From the NCBI GenBank assembly GCA_964035015.1, contig OZ035997.1, positions 23,435,834-23,499,833 on the forward strand: a stretch of DNA of 64,000 bases, read 5' to 3'. The position numbers and the translations under genes are program-made. Below are positions 1 to 58,912 of this stretch, one piece after another (position 1 is the first letter of the stretch; the number at the start of each line of letters is the position of its first letter). The notes under the pieces were generated by a model. The model was not told the origin of the DNA and did no database searches. It saw only the letters and a list, made by a program, of their open reading frames with translations. Source of the stretch: Corallium rubrum (Eukaryota; Cnidaria; Anthozoa; Scleralcyonacea; Coralliidae).

Positions 1-295
1 ATAAGTTACAACGTTTTGTTTTGTTTGAGTAGGGTTGCGATTTCTTGACGATTTTCCAGTTGATAGTGTACGGTGTGTTAGAGTCTTTTAATTTCCAAAT
101 GTGTTTGCTGAGTTCTGTGGCGTGTTTCTTGGTTTTGTTTCGAAAGGAGCTGGTGAAACAAAACCAAGAAACACGCCACAGAACTCAGCAAACACATTTG
201 GAAATTAAAAGACTCTAACACACCGTACACTATCAACTGGAAAATCGTCAAGAAATCGCAACCCTACTCAAACAAAACAAAACGTTGTAACTTAT
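1..295. repeat. Perfect palindrome of PLE 3' ends (head to head)
   Basis: Bases 1-141 are the reverse complement of 155-295, with a 13-base centre (142-154). I found no mismatch when pairing the arms by eye. The arms carry the end of a PLE coding region (see the 157-414 entry), so two truncated PLE copies meet head to head. The left arm runs off the window edge, so the full palindrome may be longer. Absence of mismatches suggests recent formation, gene conversion or an assembly artefact. Confidence 0.9.
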
Positions 296-414
296 GTCTC
301 TCCGAAAAATTCATTATCATCTACCACCCGGAACTAAGCTCCCTCAATAAACGTAACGAACTCATTTCCGCATGTCGACATCGAAAGAAATACTTACTAA
401 ACCATGTAACATGA
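157..414 (+). pseudogene. Penelope-like element, C-terminal fragment of GIY-YIG polyprotein
   Basis: An open frame without a start codon runs from 157 to a TGA at 412-414 (85 residues). It reads [13 protein letters not shown], then [24 protein letters not shown], and [18 protein letters not shown]. This block follows the GIY-YIG endonuclease at the C-terminus of Penelope-like retroelements, and the same block occurs in this window at 42.5-43.1 kb and 57.8-58.6 kb. The reverse transcriptase and the GIY-YIG core are absent, so this is a 5'-truncated copy. A hammerhead ribozyme follows 60 bases later, as expected for a PLE terminal region. Family assignment rests on the conserved cysteine/histidine block and the ribozyme. 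Confidence 0.75.
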
Positions 415-471
415 CCCAACCTATTTAATTATGCATCCCTTGTATATATTCCGTCACACTGTTACGCTATA

Positions 472-541
472 ATTATTCACCTGATGAGTGTGGCAAGTTC
501 AACACTTGCCATACGAAACAGATCTGTAGTGATTAAAAATT
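472..541 (+). ncRNA. Hammerhead ribozyme (type I, minimal) of a Penelope-like element
   Basis: The core CUGAUGA (481-487) and GAAAC (515-519) flank a 10-bp helix II, GUGUGGCAAG with CUUGCCAUAC (one G-U pair). Helix III is short: ACA and UGU around GAUC. The predicted cleavage triplet is GUA (526-528), and the following GUGA pairs with UCAC just before the core to form helix I. All catalytic core bases are present. Hammerheads with very short helix III are known from PLEs. Cleavage activity is not shown by sequence alone. Confidence 0.85.
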
Positions 542-551
542 CGATGAAGTA

Positions 552-664
552 ACTTGTGTTTTCATCTTGTGTTATACCGCTCTGCTTACGCATTGAGCAC
601 TCTATCTGTATGATTTTGTATGCGCTAGTGTATGTCTTAACGACAGTCTCTATCGCTAAATTTA

Positions 665-665
<1 letters not shown>
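552..665 (+). repeat. PLE downstream tail segment
   Basis: The segment between the ribozyme and the (TA)n tract contains CGCTCTGCTTACGCATTGAG followed by CACTCT (578-603). Similar motifs lie at 43215-43240 and, more loosely, at 58739-58772, each between a PLE end and a (TA)n tract. It looks like part of the element's terminal region. Confidence 0.55.

Positions 666-730
<65 letters not shown>
666..730. repeat. (TA)n microsatellite
   Basis: About 32 TA units directly after a PLE tail. The apparent poly-Tyr/Ile reading frame across it is an artefact of the repeat. Confidence 0.95.
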
Positions 731-736
<6 letters not shown>

Positions 737-1262: not shown

Positions 1263-1306
<44 letters not shown>

Positions 1307-1312
1307 TATATA
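1263..1312. repeat. (TA)n microsatellite
   Basis: About 25 TA units with one interruption, directly left of a foldback element. Confidence 0.95.
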
Positions 1313-1313
1313 G

Positions 1314-1507
1314 TGAATCAAAGGTGAGACATATTCAAAATCATAAAGTTTTATTACTGATATGCGGCCTAGCCTGTTACTTGGAGTTTCACGTTTGCAC
1401 GATGTTCCGACAGTGCTGTCTGCAGATCGTGCAAACGTGAGACTCGGAGTAACAGCATATTATACTGAACTTTATGATTTTGAATATGTCTCGACATCTT
1501 TGATTCA
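1314..1507. mobile_element. Foldback MITE-like element
   Basis: The terminal arm TGAATCAAAGGTGAGACATA pairs with the right end, which finishes in TTTGATTCA. A second arm, CACGTTTGCACGAT, pairs with ATCGTGCAAACGTG around a short centre. About 194 bp, with no ORF. Confidence 0.75.
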
Positions 1508-1775
1508 TTATATTATTATATTAACCTCTGCTGCGTAGCATTGAGCACTGTTGTTTCAGTAGAATAACTATATGCCCTTTATACTAATATATATATAAAT
1601 ATATATAAATATACATATATATAAATTCTAGGTAAAACTGAAGTTTTCGAAACGATCGGAGCAATCTTATTAGTAGACTAGTAGCCTAAAATCGAAACAT
1701 AAGAAAAATCCGTAAAAAAATCATCCTTTGTGCATGTCATCTTGTTCTCGATCTAGTCCAGTGTTAATTAGCCTT

Positions 1776-23405: not shown

Positions 23406-23634
23406 ACAACAGAATCAAGAAAGGGATTTTATAAAATTGTTTTGATATAACATTTATGGCCTTTTAGGGCCAAGACAGACATATAATATATTATAATTTT
23501 CAAATAAAACATGCTTCATTACACGCTAGTTATTTTGTTTTAAGTCTTTTTGTTTGTTAAGTCTTTCACATCTGGTTGAAGACTATAAATATGCATGATC
23601 TATATAAACATAGTACTCGGTTGTTCTTAACTCT

Positions 23635-24685
23635 TACACGACCGAGGGCTGACAAGTAAAATCGTCTGGTGGTGTTAGACAGAGTAAAATACTAAGTACT
23701 GCTTAGTTCGAAAACGAACGACACGGTAGGCAAAGAGTTACGAAGATTCTTACACGACCGAGGGCTGACAAGTAAAATCGTCTGGTGGTGTTAGACAGAG
23801 TAAAATACTAAGTACTGCTTAGTTCGAAAACGAACGACACGGTAGGCAAAGAGTTACGAAGATTCTTTCACGACCGAGGGCTGACAAGTAAAATCGTCTG
23901 GTGGTGTTAGACAGAGTAAAATACTAAGTACTGCTTAGTTCGAAAACGAACGACACGGTAGGCAAAGAGTTACGAAGATTCTTTCACGACCGAGGGCTGA
24001 CAAGTAAAATCGTCTGGTGGTGTTAGACAGAGTAAAATACTAAGTACTGCTTAGTTCGAAAACGAACGACACGGTAGGCAAAGAGTTACGAAGATTCTTA
24101 CACGACCGAGGGCTGACAAGTAAAATCGTCTGGCGGTGTTAGACAGAGTAAAATACTAAATACTGCTTAGTTCGAAAACGAACGACACGGTAGGCAAAGA
24201 GTTACGAAGATTCTTACACGACCGAGGGTTGACAAGTAAAATCGTCTGGTGGTGTTAGACAGAGTACAATACTAAGTACTGCTTAGTTCGAAAACGAAGG
24301 ACACGGTAGGCAAAGAGTTACGAAGATTCTTACACGACCGAGGGCTGACAAGTAAAATCGTCTGGCGGTGTTAGACAGAGTAAAATACTAAATACTGCTT
24401 AGTTCGAAAACGAACGACACGGTAGGCAAAGAGTTACGAAGATTCTTACACGACCGAGGGCTGACAAGTAAAATCGTCTGGTGGTGTTAGACAGAGTACA
24501 ATACTAAGTACTGCTTAGTTCGAAAACGAAGGACACGGTAGGCAAAGAGTTACGAAGATTCTTTCACGACCGAGGGCTCTCCACTTGACAAGTGAAATCG
24601 TCTGGCGTTAGACAGAGTAAAATACTCTGGTGCTAGATAGAGTAAAATAATAAAGTCTGCGAAAACGAACGATACGGTAGGTAAA
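23635..24685. repeat. 116-bp satellite array (8 full units plus one decayed)
   Basis: Units begin at 23635, 23751, 23867, 23983, 24099, 24215, 24331, 24447 and 24563, an exact 116-bp period. Each contains CGACCGAGGGCTGACAAGTA, AAAATCGTCTGG, a hairpin GTTCGAAAACGAAC, and GGTAGGCAAAGAGTTACGAA. Units 5 and 7 share variants (GGCGGTG, ACTAAATACT), and units 6 and 8 share others (GAGTACAATACT, CGAAGGAC), so a 232-bp dimer has itself been duplicated. The ninth unit is diverged and carries the simpler CGTCTGGCGTTAGACAGAG form, also seen at 2888. Confidence 0.95.
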
Positions 24686-41860: not shown

Positions 41861-41865
41861 CCGTT

Positions 41866-42168
41866 AAAGTGCATATAAACCCTCCACAGTTTTTAGTTCC
41901 CTGTTTAGAGGGCGGAAAGACAGTTGTAAAGTTATTTTACAGTTCTTCATTTGGGCGTTTTGTTTCCGAGATATATCTCTTTGAACATTGGAAATAGCAT
42001 TTGCGGCAATTTCCAGCGGATCGGACTTTTTGCCAATGTTCAAATCAAAGAGATATATCTCGGAAACAAAACGACCAAATCAAAAACTGTAAAATAACTT
42101 TACAACTGATTTTCCGCCCTCTAAACATGCAGGGAACTAAAAACTGTGGAGGGTTTATACGCACTTTA
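41866..42168. mobile_element. Foldback MITE-like element
   Basis: The left arm starting AAAGTGCATATAAACCCTCC pairs with the right arm ending GGAGGGTTTATACGCACTTT. GAGATATATCTC and AGTTATTTTACAG also pair. Arms are about 120 bp. Confidence 0.85.
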
Positions 42169-42375
42169 AGGCATACGCTGAACAATAGCCACTATAGAAG
42201 GGCAAATATTCCCCGCAAAGCTATACACATGACAGCACGGCATACAAACGTGGAAAACACTGATAGATCTTATTTAGAAATCTGCAATATTTATATATAA
42301 TTTTATGTACAATTATATTGCCAGGTATATGCTAAGGCAACAGGCTACTATACAGTATATTTGTAGCAAACGGTC

Positions 42376-42376
<1 letters not shown>

Positions 42377-42406
<30 letters not shown>
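42377..42406. repeat. (TA)n microsatellite at PLE left border
   Basis: About 15 TA units that directly abut the left copy of the PLE palindrome. Confidence 0.9.
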
Positions 42407-42414
<8 letters not shown>

Positions 42415-42462
42415 TTAATTTAAAACATTGGATAGGTAAAAACTATGCACATGTTAAAAAAG

Positions 42463-42512
42463 GCGGTAACTCAAGTTTCACGCTCGAAGCGATCATCAGA
42501 CTAAAAACGGGT
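42463..42512 (-). ncRNA. Hammerhead-like ribozyme motif, left PLE copy
   Basis: Minus strand CUGAUGA, helix II CGCU with AGCG around UCG, then GAAAC and UUGAGUU. Core bases are intact, but helix I pairing is weak, so activity is uncertain. Confidence 0.65.
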
Positions 42513-42518
42513 TAAGAA

Positions 42519-42740
42519 TTACGGGGGTTTAAGATTAATTGTATAAAATTTGTTTTCGTGCCTACACTTAGATAAAAGTTCAGTCCTTTTGTTTAAAATA
42601 TGTTTTCCTGCTTTTAAAATGCAAAGTTTCTCCGCCAGACAAAGGTTGCATTGTTTCCCTCCACTTCTGTACGCATTCGCCCGATTTAAAATTGACATTT
42701 GATTGTGTACTTCGTTTCTGCTTCCTTTAATTCCCATATG
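42519..42740 (-). pseudogene. PLE C-terminal fragment, left copy
   Basis: Minus strand reads MGIKGSRNEVHNQMSILNRA, then AYRSGGKQCNLCLAEKLCIL, LNKRTELLSKCRHENKFYTI and a stop. It is the same Cys/His block that follows GIY-YIG in the other PLE copies. The frame is open but 5'-truncated at the palindrome centre. Confidence 0.75.
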
Positions 42741-42869
42741 TATTTAGACAACGCTGTGCTTGATTGATGCATATTTTTTGTTATTAAATGACTGCTTGTG
42801 GTTGCGAAATCTTGTCTTGAATTGTCTTGATTATCAGTCATTTAATAACAAAAAATATGATCAAGCACA

Positions 42870-43100
42870 GCGTTGCCTAAATACATATGGGAATTAAAGG
42901 AAGCAGAAACGAAGTACACAATCAAATGGTCAATTTTTAAACGGGCGAATGCGTACAGAAGTGGAGGGAAACAATGCAACCTTTGTCTGGCGGAGAAACT
43001 TTGCATTTAGGAAAACATATTTTAAACAAAAGGACTGAACTTTTATCTAAGTGTAGGCACGAAAACAAATTTTATGCAATTAATCTTAAACCCCCGTAAT
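42870..43100 (+). pseudogene. PLE C-terminal fragment, right copy
   Basis: Plus strand carries GIKGSRNEVHNQMVNF then a stop, and later LNKRTELLSKCRHENKFYAI in a different frame. It is the inverted partner of 42519-42740, with frame damage that the left copy lacks. Confidence 0.7.
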
Positions 43101-43104
43101 TCTT

Positions 43105-43160
43105 AACCCGTTTTTAGTCTGATGATCGCTTCAAGCGTGAAACTTGAGTTACCGCCTTTT
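43105..43160 (+). ncRNA. Hammerhead-like ribozyme motif, right PLE copy
   Basis: CUGAUGA at 43119-43125, helix II CGCU/AGCG with loop UCA, GAAAC at 43139-43143. Same form as the left copy, with one loop base changed. Confidence 0.65.
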
Positions 43161-43211
43161 TTAACATGTACATAGGTTTTACCTATCCAAGGTTTTAAAT
43201 TAAATGCTTTA

Positions 43212-43272
43212 TCATCGCTCTACTTTGTATTGAGCACTCTACAAGCTACTGGTGGCAAACATTTCGTTTTAA

Positions 43273-43277
<5 letters not shown>
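43212..43277 (+). repeat. PLE downstream tail segment
   Basis: TCGCTCTACTTTGTATTGAG then CACTCT (43215-43240), like the tail at 578-603. It lies between the right PLE end and (TA)n; the left PLE copy has no such tail. Confidence 0.6.

Positions 43278-43331
<54 letters not shown>
43278..43331. repeat. (TA)n microsatellite
   Basis: About 27 TA units right of the PLE palindrome. Confidence 0.95.

Positions 43332-43333
<2 letters not shown>

Positions 43334-57642: not shown

Positions 57643-57648
<6 letters not shown>

Positions 57649-57674
<26 letters not shown>
57649..57674. repeat. (TA)n microsatellite at PLE left border
   Basis: 13 TA units abutting the left PLE copy. Confidence 0.9.
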
Positions 57675-57676
<2 letters not shown>

Positions 57677-57700
57677 GACTGTTTCTTACTTAAAACATCA

Positions 57701-57752
57701 TTGTTGCTACTCTGAGTTTCACGCGGTTAGGCGATCATCAGGCAACTGTGAA
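57701..57752 (-). ncRNA. Hammerhead ribozyme motif, left PLE copy
   Basis: Minus strand GUUGC, CUGAUGA, helix II, GUGAAAC, UCAGAGUA, GCAAC. Helix I (GUUGC/GCAAC) is perfect and the cleavage triplet is GUA. Confidence 0.75.
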
Positions 57753-57756
57753 AGAT

Positions 57757-58105
57757 TCAGTTAGATTTAACTATGCTTGCTGACGTTGGACGGTTTGCAT
57801 GATGTCGCGTCACTTTCTTCTTTGCGCGGCTAACACTTCCCGCCAAAAATCTTCGTTGGTGGCGGCATTTTGAGAAAAGTTCTGATCTTTTGTTCAGTAA
57901 TGGTTGTTTGATGGCTTTCAAGATGCAGAGCTTTTCTTCAAGGCAAAGATTGCATCGCTTCCCTCCACTTGAATAAGATGCAGCATGCTTCATGACTGAC
58001 CAGTTGATGTTAAAAGATCGCCCGTCTTGTTTCAAATCCCATACATACTTTGAAAGTTCTGTGTTGTTTGAATATTTCGTGTCCTGGAAAGATTTTAGGT
58101 GTGTG
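57757..58105 (-). pseudogene. PLE C-terminal fragment, left copy
   Basis: Open frame on the minus strand: LKSFQDTKYSNNTELSKYVW, INWSVMKHAASYSSGGKRCN, LCLEEKLCILKA, LLNKRSELFSKCRHQRRFL, and a stop at 57757. It keeps the full Cys/His block and lacks GIY-YIG; the frame continues by chance into antisense of the right copy up to 58182. Confidence 0.8.
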
Positions 58106-58106
58106 T

Positions 58107-58650
58107 GAAGACACCCTTTCGAAAACGATACCAACCAACGGGGAAACCAAATGCAACTGCAGAAAGAAGAATGAATGCCCACTACAAGGTAACTGCCTAG
58201 CTAGTAGCGTTGTTTACAAAGCCGAAATCACCACAACAGACAACGGGGAGACAAAACAATACATTGGTGTGACAGCAAACAACTTTAAAGAACGTTACAG
58301 AAACCACAAAAATCTTTCCAGGACACGAAATATTCAAACAACACAGAACTTTCAAAGTATGTATGGGATTTGAAACAAGACGGGCGATCTTTTATAACAT
58401 CAACTGGTCAGTCATGAAGCATGCTGCATCTTATTCAAGTGGAGGGAAGCGATGCAATCTTTGCCTTGAAGAAAAGCTCTGCATCTTGAAAGCCATCAAA
58501 CAACCATTACTGAACAAAAGATCAGAACTTTTCTCAAAATGCCGCCACCAACGAAGATTTTTGGCGGGAAGTGTTAGCCGCGCAAAGAAGAAAGTGACGC
58601 GACATCATGCAAACCGTCCAACGTCAGCAAACATAGTTAAATCTAACTGA
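58107..58650 (+). pseudogene. PLE GIY-YIG endonuclease domain and C-terminus, right copy
   Basis: Frame 1 gives CNCRKKNECPLQGNC (a Cys cluster), VVYKAEI (in place of GIY), QYIGVT (YIG) and FKERYRNHK. One extra base near 58310 and two extra near 58392 shift the frame out and back. Frame returns for INWSVMKHAASYSSGGKRCN, LCLEEKLCIL and CRHQRRFLAGSV, ending in TGA near 58650. The GIY-YIG nuclease nicks DNA for target-primed integration in PLEs. This copy is inactive because of the frameshifts and the missing RT. Confidence 0.82.
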
Positions 58651-58659
58651 ATCTTTCAC

Positions 58660-58706
58660 AGTTGCCTGATGATCGCCTAACCGCGCGAAACTCAGAGTAG
58701 CAACAA
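58660..58706 (+). ncRNA. Hammerhead ribozyme motif, right PLE copy
   Basis: AGUUGC (58660-58665), CUGAUGA (58666-58672), helix II CGC/GCG, GAAAC (58687-58691), short helix III AC/GU, triplet GUA ending 58699, then GCAAC (58700-58704) pairing with GUUGC. Core bases intact; helix II is short with weak closing pairs. Confidence 0.78.
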
Positions 58707-58732
58707 TGATGTTTTAAGTAAGAAACAGTCAG

Positions 58733-58819
58733 TTAAATCCGCTCTACATATGTATAGGTATCGAGTACTCTTCAATCTACTACTAACATTATATTTACTT
58801 GGTATATTTATTTACTTGG

Positions 58820-58826
<7 letters not shown>
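58733..58826 (+). repeat. PLE downstream tail segment
   Basis: CCGCTCTACATATGTATAGG then GAGTACTCTT (58738-58772) loosely matches the tails at 578 and 43215. It precedes (TA)n and is absent beside the left copy. Confidence 0.5.

Positions 58827-58910
<84 letters not shown>
58827..58910. repeat. (TA)n microsatellite
   Basis: About 42 TA units. Confidence 0.95.

Positions 58911-58912
<2 letters not shown>

Follow-up and report, generated by a model that had tools for sequence, protein, structure and literature searches.

How does a retroelement come to lie in a genome as two inverted copies, one of which carries a tail? The question is raised by a 64,000-nucleotide stretch of the Corallium rubrum genome, hereafter the window (C1:23435834–23499833, in an assembly of 474 Mb and 312 contigs). 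An initial annotation, made from the letters of the window alone, had described 5′-truncated copies of Penelope-like elements (PLEs) that meet head to head, the left one touching (TA)n directly and the right one followed by a one-sided tail. Both complete window loci have this layout (Table 1). We refer to the arm that ends with a hairpin (hairpin A) and the tail as the T arm, and to the tail-less arm as the N arm. At locus 2 (42.4–43.3 kb), a palindrome with 92% self-complementarity spans positions 42406–43212; its arms are 94.6% identical in an arm comparison, (TA)16 abuts the inverted arm, and the tail opens with CGCTCTACTTTGTATTGAGCACTCT at 43216 and is followed by (TA)28. The arms of locus 3 (57.6–58.9 kb; 57669–58096 and 58309–58738) are 98.6% alike. 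Locus 1 (1–730) had been taken for the right half of the same plan, and the flank of the window (L040) supplies the left half, which begins 281 bp before the window, is tail-less and abuts (TA)n. With this flank, locus 1 has 422-bp arms at 100% identity around a 13-bp spacer. The tails of loci 2, 3 and 1, counted from the first base of the hairpin up to (TA)n, are 61, 80 and 85 bp long, close to the 66–94 bp first claimed; those of loci 2 and 3 open with CGCTCT...GAGYACTCT and then run into (TA)n.

Exact matches to the tail pattern CGCTCTRCN{5,17}GAGYACTCT number 370 genome-wide (184 and 186 on the two strands), against one for the reversed pattern, so the layout seen in the window is not due to chance. 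As a sample we took the first 72 of 100 listed matches in contig order, all of them on C1 (70 fetched and two in the window; 28 listed and 270 other matches lie outside the sample). The loci were first read with 1.5–1.6 kb of upstream sequence, 13 places on C1 were extended further, and classes were called by us from comparisons and sequence reading. Forty loci are head-to-head T/N pairs and none is a T/T pair; sampling by the tail motif cannot reveal N/N pairs. Three more are pairs whose left arm started internally (L011 at −22, L036 at −11 and L057 at about −149). Ten are single tailed copies with an upstream (TA)n or AT repeat no more than about 40 bp from their start (L024, L026, L029, L032, L041, L046, L050, L053, L055 and L065), two are tiny inserts (L077, L078), and five are internal units that continue into a second hairpin, hairpin B (L016, L017, L021 and the adjacent L037 and L038). 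The remaining 12 have no class call, mostly where the left end was not reached (L013, L039, L043, L045, L047, L048, L052, L056, L064, L068, L074 and L075).

Among the 40 T/N calls, 35 were measured, two rest on coordinates (L010, L018), two on sequence reading (L009, L020) and one was made separately (L034); the weak cases are L025, with 16-bp arms, and L009, which lacks a left (TA)n. In all 35 measured pairs, which had been pre-selected within −8 to +2, the N arm stops 0 to −6 nt from hairpin A; a 36th row (C1:8075426), which measured a neighbouring copy, was dropped. In the sample, head-to-head pairs tailed on one side only occur in the excess that the initial annotation had set beforehand as its genome check, which supports its suggestion that integration routinely yields an inverted dimer within (TA)n. 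The layout also recurs across PLE lineages, as proposed: it was found again in families with protein fragments about 34–57% identical to the F2 reference.

The pairing of one T end with one N end was examined family by family. For F1, a 129-nt query from L042 that ends just before the tail lets T and N ends compete equally; with 40 of 382 candidates scored, it gave 43 matches. These ends form 17 T/N pairs, four unpaired T ends, three unpaired N ends and one pair on C22 and C64 with a tail that starts inside hairpin A. A longer query of 190 nt, extending through the tail, yielded 47 matches with 40 of 442 candidates scored (fetched flanks were also used) and added three T/N pairs, and in this search 20 of 20 N rows end at query position 129. 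All 20 F1 pairs with regular ends are therefore T/N, with no T/T and no N/N among ends searched equally; set aside from this count are the C22/C64 pair and a pair on C23 (L097) with an internally started left arm. Twelve of the 20 lie outside the 72-locus sample and are known by coordinates, one of them (C82) also from fetched sequence. By our own arithmetic, random pairing of ends at equal frequency would give 20 of 20 with a chance of about one in a million.

In F2, all eight coordinate pairs are T/N, with N ends at positions 123–127 of 206 and one pair (L030) read in sequence; the F2 query stops where hairpin B would start, so that a T match is indistinguishable from an internal unit. F5, with a query that favours tailed and internal ends, gave two T/N pairs and one T/T pair. 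A further T/T candidate, on C280, was dismissed, one of its sides being an internal unit. Counted without duplication, all pairs amount to 61 T/N (40 from the sample, 12 from F1, seven from F2, one from F5 and one from an array on C8), one T/T and no N/N, the last class being detectable in F1 only.

What the tail is can be read from the full units. The distance from hairpin A to (TA)n is nearly constant within a family (55 nt in eight of eight F1 loci, 78 nt in most F2 loci). In the five internal units of the sample, the tail meets hairpin B, CGCTCC...TTGAGCACTCT, rather than (TA)n; beyond hairpin B, an open reading frame (ORF) starts in the four such units printed. At unit boundaries the start of hairpin A lies 61–86 nt from the start of hairpin B. 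Because the tails of internal units run into hairpin B, the tail is the interval between the related hairpins A and B at the start of the next unit. N arms begin 0–6 nt before hairpin A and T arms immediately ahead of B; each start lies on a short AT-rich word that could base-pair with the (TA)n end. The apical stem of hairpin A averages 3.78 bp over 27 distinct sequences, compared with 0.78 bp (sd 0.19) in 2000 shuffles, of which the highest reached 1.48; the basal stem, being fixed by the search pattern, was not counted. Hairpin A is kept as a structure.

The arms themselves are unequal. Spacers in the 35 measured pairs range from 0 to 1636 bp, with at least 100 bp in 13 pairs and at most 10 bp in nine. 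Wherever a spacer could be assigned, it extends one arm only (the T arm is longer in eight loci, the N arm in at least eight; the others are too short or ambiguous), and therefore the arms are two separately truncated copies. Young arms are near-identical (2117 bp at 99.95%, 673 bp at 100%). In the longest comparison between loci (1275 bp), the arms of one insertion share 99.61% identity, against 98.90–98.98% to another locus. Taking all arms, the own mate was closer in 15 cases, less close in six and tied in 10. For nine of 100 mismatches between arms, both alleles occur elsewhere among the loci, and six of these nine lie beside the junction or (TA)n.

The plan extends to whole arrays. At C8:18.682–18.703 Mb, four minus-strand copies of hairpin B are followed by four plus-strand copies, in steps of 2410–2412 bp (C8:18684922–18700548; L105–L107), and by eye the left outer end is T and the right one N. 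These tandem units, about 20 kb in all, follow the same plan and would fit a multimeric or circular template RNA. A second array, on C4, has steps of 2388–2389 bp and a run of undetermined bases (N) at its right end. Beside the C8 array, in the same (TA)n, lies a small insertion of the window's first family, tailed on one side (L105, 345–570).

We consider it likely that PLE insertions in this genome arise by two-strand target-primed reverse transcription at a cut (TA)n, with one start site used on each strand. The template RNA would span a unit boundary and carry hairpin A and, 61–86 nt further on, hairpin B, ahead of the ORF of the next unit, with a short AT-rich start site immediately before each hairpin. 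Extension of one target strand from the site before B would produce an arm terminating in hairpin A plus tail, and extension of the other strand from the site before A would produce the tail-less arm. The two cDNAs, each with its own 5′ truncation point, would then be joined head to head. The layout, the one-tail rule within the samples, the exact ends, the second hairpin of full units and the unequal lengths of the arms are observed directly; the enzymology, the joining step and the use of one site per strand in a single event are what we infer from the genomic products. In the passages covered of a study of a lizard PLE (PMC11167929), the protein cuts and extends both target strands and uses two adjacent internal start sites, and the tail is the interval between them. 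A more tentative proposal is that one RNA serves both strands: a dimeric enzyme might sit on the two hairpins, each hairpin with its own reverse transcriptase and each of these engaging a different target strand. We regard this arrangement as possible rather than probable; if true, the transcript would be copied twice, filling both sides of the break, and the two hairpins would act as a portable code for integration, which retrozymes use too.

Several observations weigh against synthesis on both strands from one site each, or limit its reach. There is one clear T/T pair (C28:5411705/5413494, in L092, C28:5411300–5414100), and the count of zero N/N pairs draws on F1 alone. The apical stem of hairpin B is weak (1.4 bp versus 0.6 bp, top shuffle 1.8) over 10 sequences, three of which may be mutated copies of A. 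Left arms also start at other AT sites, at −11, −22 and about −149 in the sampled loci and likewise in L097 and the small insert in L105, and one tail starts within hairpin A (L098/L099). Because some arms start elsewhere, the start sites are preferred rather than absolute. Single copies occur, both tailed (10 of 72) and tail-less (two in F1), so both strands are not always used, and the 12 sampled loci without a class call must be set on the same side. A target-site duplication within (TA)n is not demonstrable: an interrupted word of at least 8 is shared in six of 36 loci, whereas shuffled pairing gave 3.8 on average and 10 at most. Finally, in the passages covered of PMC11167929, the top and bottom strands were not seen to differ in their start site in vitro, so the one-of-each rule is not derivable from that assay.

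Head-to-head palindromes have been explained before, in 2013, by self-priming on antisense RNA (PMC3846280), without a census of tail pairing in the parts of that paper covered. In such snap-back synthesis a cDNA or antisense RNA would fold back at its inner end and copy itself into a palindrome. The near-identity of young arms, up to 2117 bp at 99.95%, is as expected from self-copying, as are their closer match to each other than to another locus over 1275 bp and the nine spacers of at most 10 bp; the 13 spacers of at least 100 bp, up to 1636 bp, are long for fold-back loops. Self-copying also gives matching ends, T/T or N/N, and with 61 T/N pairs, one T/T and no N/N (the latter visible in F1 only) the one-tail rule disfavours it as the principal route. 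We judge it unlikely, and the T/T pair on C28 could be one of its products. Two independent insertions, made in opposite orientation into the same hot (TA)n, have in their favour that (TA)n is a hot spot, as where the small insertion of L105 adjoins the 20-kb array, and that two copies lie tail to tail at C8:27159722/27160084. However, assignable junctions hold element sequence continuous with one arm rather than (TA)n, the arms are near-identical, and random pairing would make T/T and N/N as frequent as T/N, all of which renders this origin very improbable.

Long palindromes are a known type of assembly or amplification artefact, formed through palindromic chimeric reads, and the palindromes described here are known from the assembly alone. 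Against such an origin, older arms have diverged (94.6% identity at locus 2; 97.7% and 95.7% elsewhere) and the structures end at element-specific sites flanked by (TA)n; we give it very little credence. A last alternative keeps synthesis on both strands and draws on two separate RNAs with different processed 3′ ends. The nine arm mismatches with both alleles in other loci agree with two templates, though six of them lie beside the junction or (TA)n. A random draw of RNAs would also yield T/T pairs, of which one was seen, and N/N pairs, of which none was, and the published enzyme starts internally whatever the 3′ end of the RNA, in the passages covered of PMC11167929. Two separate templates are, in our assessment, decidedly unlikely.

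The identity of the element was assessed from its architecture and its coding remnants. Tandem and partial-tandem units with pseudo-long terminal repeats (pLTRs), a PLE trait, occur in the C8 and C4 arrays and at five of the 72 sampled loci, where the next unit follows a unit boundary, and the optional tail at one end, another such trait, is present as well; tandem units, tail and target fit PLE identity. The motifs FDIVEFYPSIT and GLYRDDGLA are presumably those of a telomerase-like reverse transcriptase; they had no Pfam or Protein Data Bank (PDB) match. A block VYQA...YVGLTE..FKTRY.NH, alignable over most of 24 sequences, we take to be GIY-YIG. PF01541 (GIY-YIG) matched three of the 23 members of A1 at a weak best E of 0.00071, Pox_D5 likewise three of 23 at 0.0017, and Pfam gave no GIY-YIG match in the reference protein or the window pieces. 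Foldseek of two AlphaFold models against PDB, together with PDB sequence searches and Pfam searches with single proteins, returned no firm domain match. The GIY-YIG assignment is putative and weakly supported. The CTGATGA...GAAAC cores, which we assume to be minimal type I hammerheads, did not match a hammerhead family in Rfam.

Table 1. Features of the three PLE loci and of a fourth insertion in the window (window coordinates; a dot marks features without strand).
Feature	Position	Strand	Remark
(TA)n, N side of locus 2	42377..42408	.	
Locus 2 left arm (N), 5′-truncated PLE 3′ end, longer arm of the pair	42406..42835	-	inner boundary approximate
Locus 2 right arm (T), 5′-truncated PLE 3′ end, C-terminal endonuclease-like coding remnant	42836..43215	+	inner boundary approximate
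Minimal hammerhead-like core CTGATGA...GAAAC, locus 2	43119..43143	+	presumed label; no Rfam match
Tail hairpin A, locus 2	43216..43240	+	
Tail of locus 2, right side only	43216..43276	+	
(TA)n, tailed side of locus 2	43277..43332	.	
(TA)n, N side of locus 3	57646..57674	.	
Locus 3 left arm (N)	57669..58096	-	
Locus 3 spacer, at least 162 of 212 bp continuous with right arm; codes part of putative GIY-YIG-like endonuclease	58097..58308	+	
Locus 3 right arm (T)	58309..58739	+	
Minimal hammerhead-like core, locus 3	58666..58691	+	presumed label; no Rfam match
Tail hairpin A, locus 3	58740..58771	+	
Tail of locus 3, right side only	58740..58819	+	
(TA)n, tailed side of locus 3	58820..58911	.	
Locus 1 palindrome centre (1–295) and right arm	1..577	+	
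Tail hairpin A, locus 1	578..603	+	
(TA)n, tailed side of locus 1	663..736	.	
Fourth, decayed insertion with the same plan	~1263..1626	+	(TA)n 1263–1312, palindrome 1298–1523 (77%), AT-rich repeat 1587–1626

In the fourth, decayed insertion, a tail-like TGCGTAGCATTGAGCACTG was read by eye 3′ of the palindrome. Directly upstream of locus 2, positions 41864–42169 hold a different palindrome with 84% self-complementarity. Three relatives of the locus 2 palindrome elsewhere in the assembly (L003–L005, at C109:187028, C55:288145 and C53:107249) are equal in length and score and perhaps lie on allelic or duplicated contigs. The window also contains a tandem array of a 116-bp unit at 23632–24578 (8.2 copies, 97% similarity).

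The hairpin pair is also found outside PLEs. The hairpin B pattern gave 199 matches against 22 for the control, and a 276-bp tandem repeat, or singletons of it, makes up many of the 100 listed. These repeats, next to (TA)n, carry a putative hammerhead core and two PLE-like hairpins 37 nt apart. In four of five such loci (L111, L112, L114 and L116; the end of L115 was not reached) the 3′ end is GATTGAAC followed by (TA)n, just before the first hairpin. L111 (C1:65968700–65971800) proceeds in 276-bp steps, with nine matches to the hammerhead-core pattern in 10 units; we take its core to be a canonical type I hammerhead. The L111 and L115 arrays start right at the hairpin, as though (TA)n stood between whole units.

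Mobilisation of retrozymes by PLEs has been suggested from shared hammerheads, tandem layout and co-occurrence, in the passages covered of PMC7229834 and PMC7761336; unlike PLEs, the metazoan retrozymes described there are non-coding. The ends of the 276-bp repeats resemble the PLE start rule and support the mobilisation suggested in PMC7229834. Our model ties retrozymes to PLEs through a shared RNA module and predicts which parts of the RNA to delete. The finished products in this genome give the tail a meaning and tell against self-priming as the chief origin of inverted copies.

The inverted layout and the optional one-sided tail are already known qualitatively from the published passages covered. 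No statement of the one-of-each rule or of the hairpin pair was found in the literature searched, which omits three key PLE papers, and PMC12910113 is silent on both in the passages covered. Judged by the parts of PMC3846280 covered, Pen2a/Pen2 of Adineta vaga resemble the coral insertions in having an inverted partial copy, mostly head to head, an optional tail at one inverted pLTR and AT-rich targets; they differ in their few copies and in the target duplications of 8–10 bp seen there. Poseidon_Ac of Anolis carolinensis, as described in the passages covered of PMC11167929, is a GIY-YIG-type PLE, the type putatively represented here, and likewise has tandem units, AT-rich targets and a tail at the start of the next unit; it has two adjacent internal start sites, and both strands are cut and extended in vitro. 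Its commonest start lies in an AC-rich stem loop 111–118 nt inside the ORF, without a difference between strands, whereas here two related hairpins precede an ATG read by eye and genomic pairs use one site each. The in vitro work provides two start sites and extension of two strands, but not their combination within one insertion; the finished genomic products point to one site per strand.
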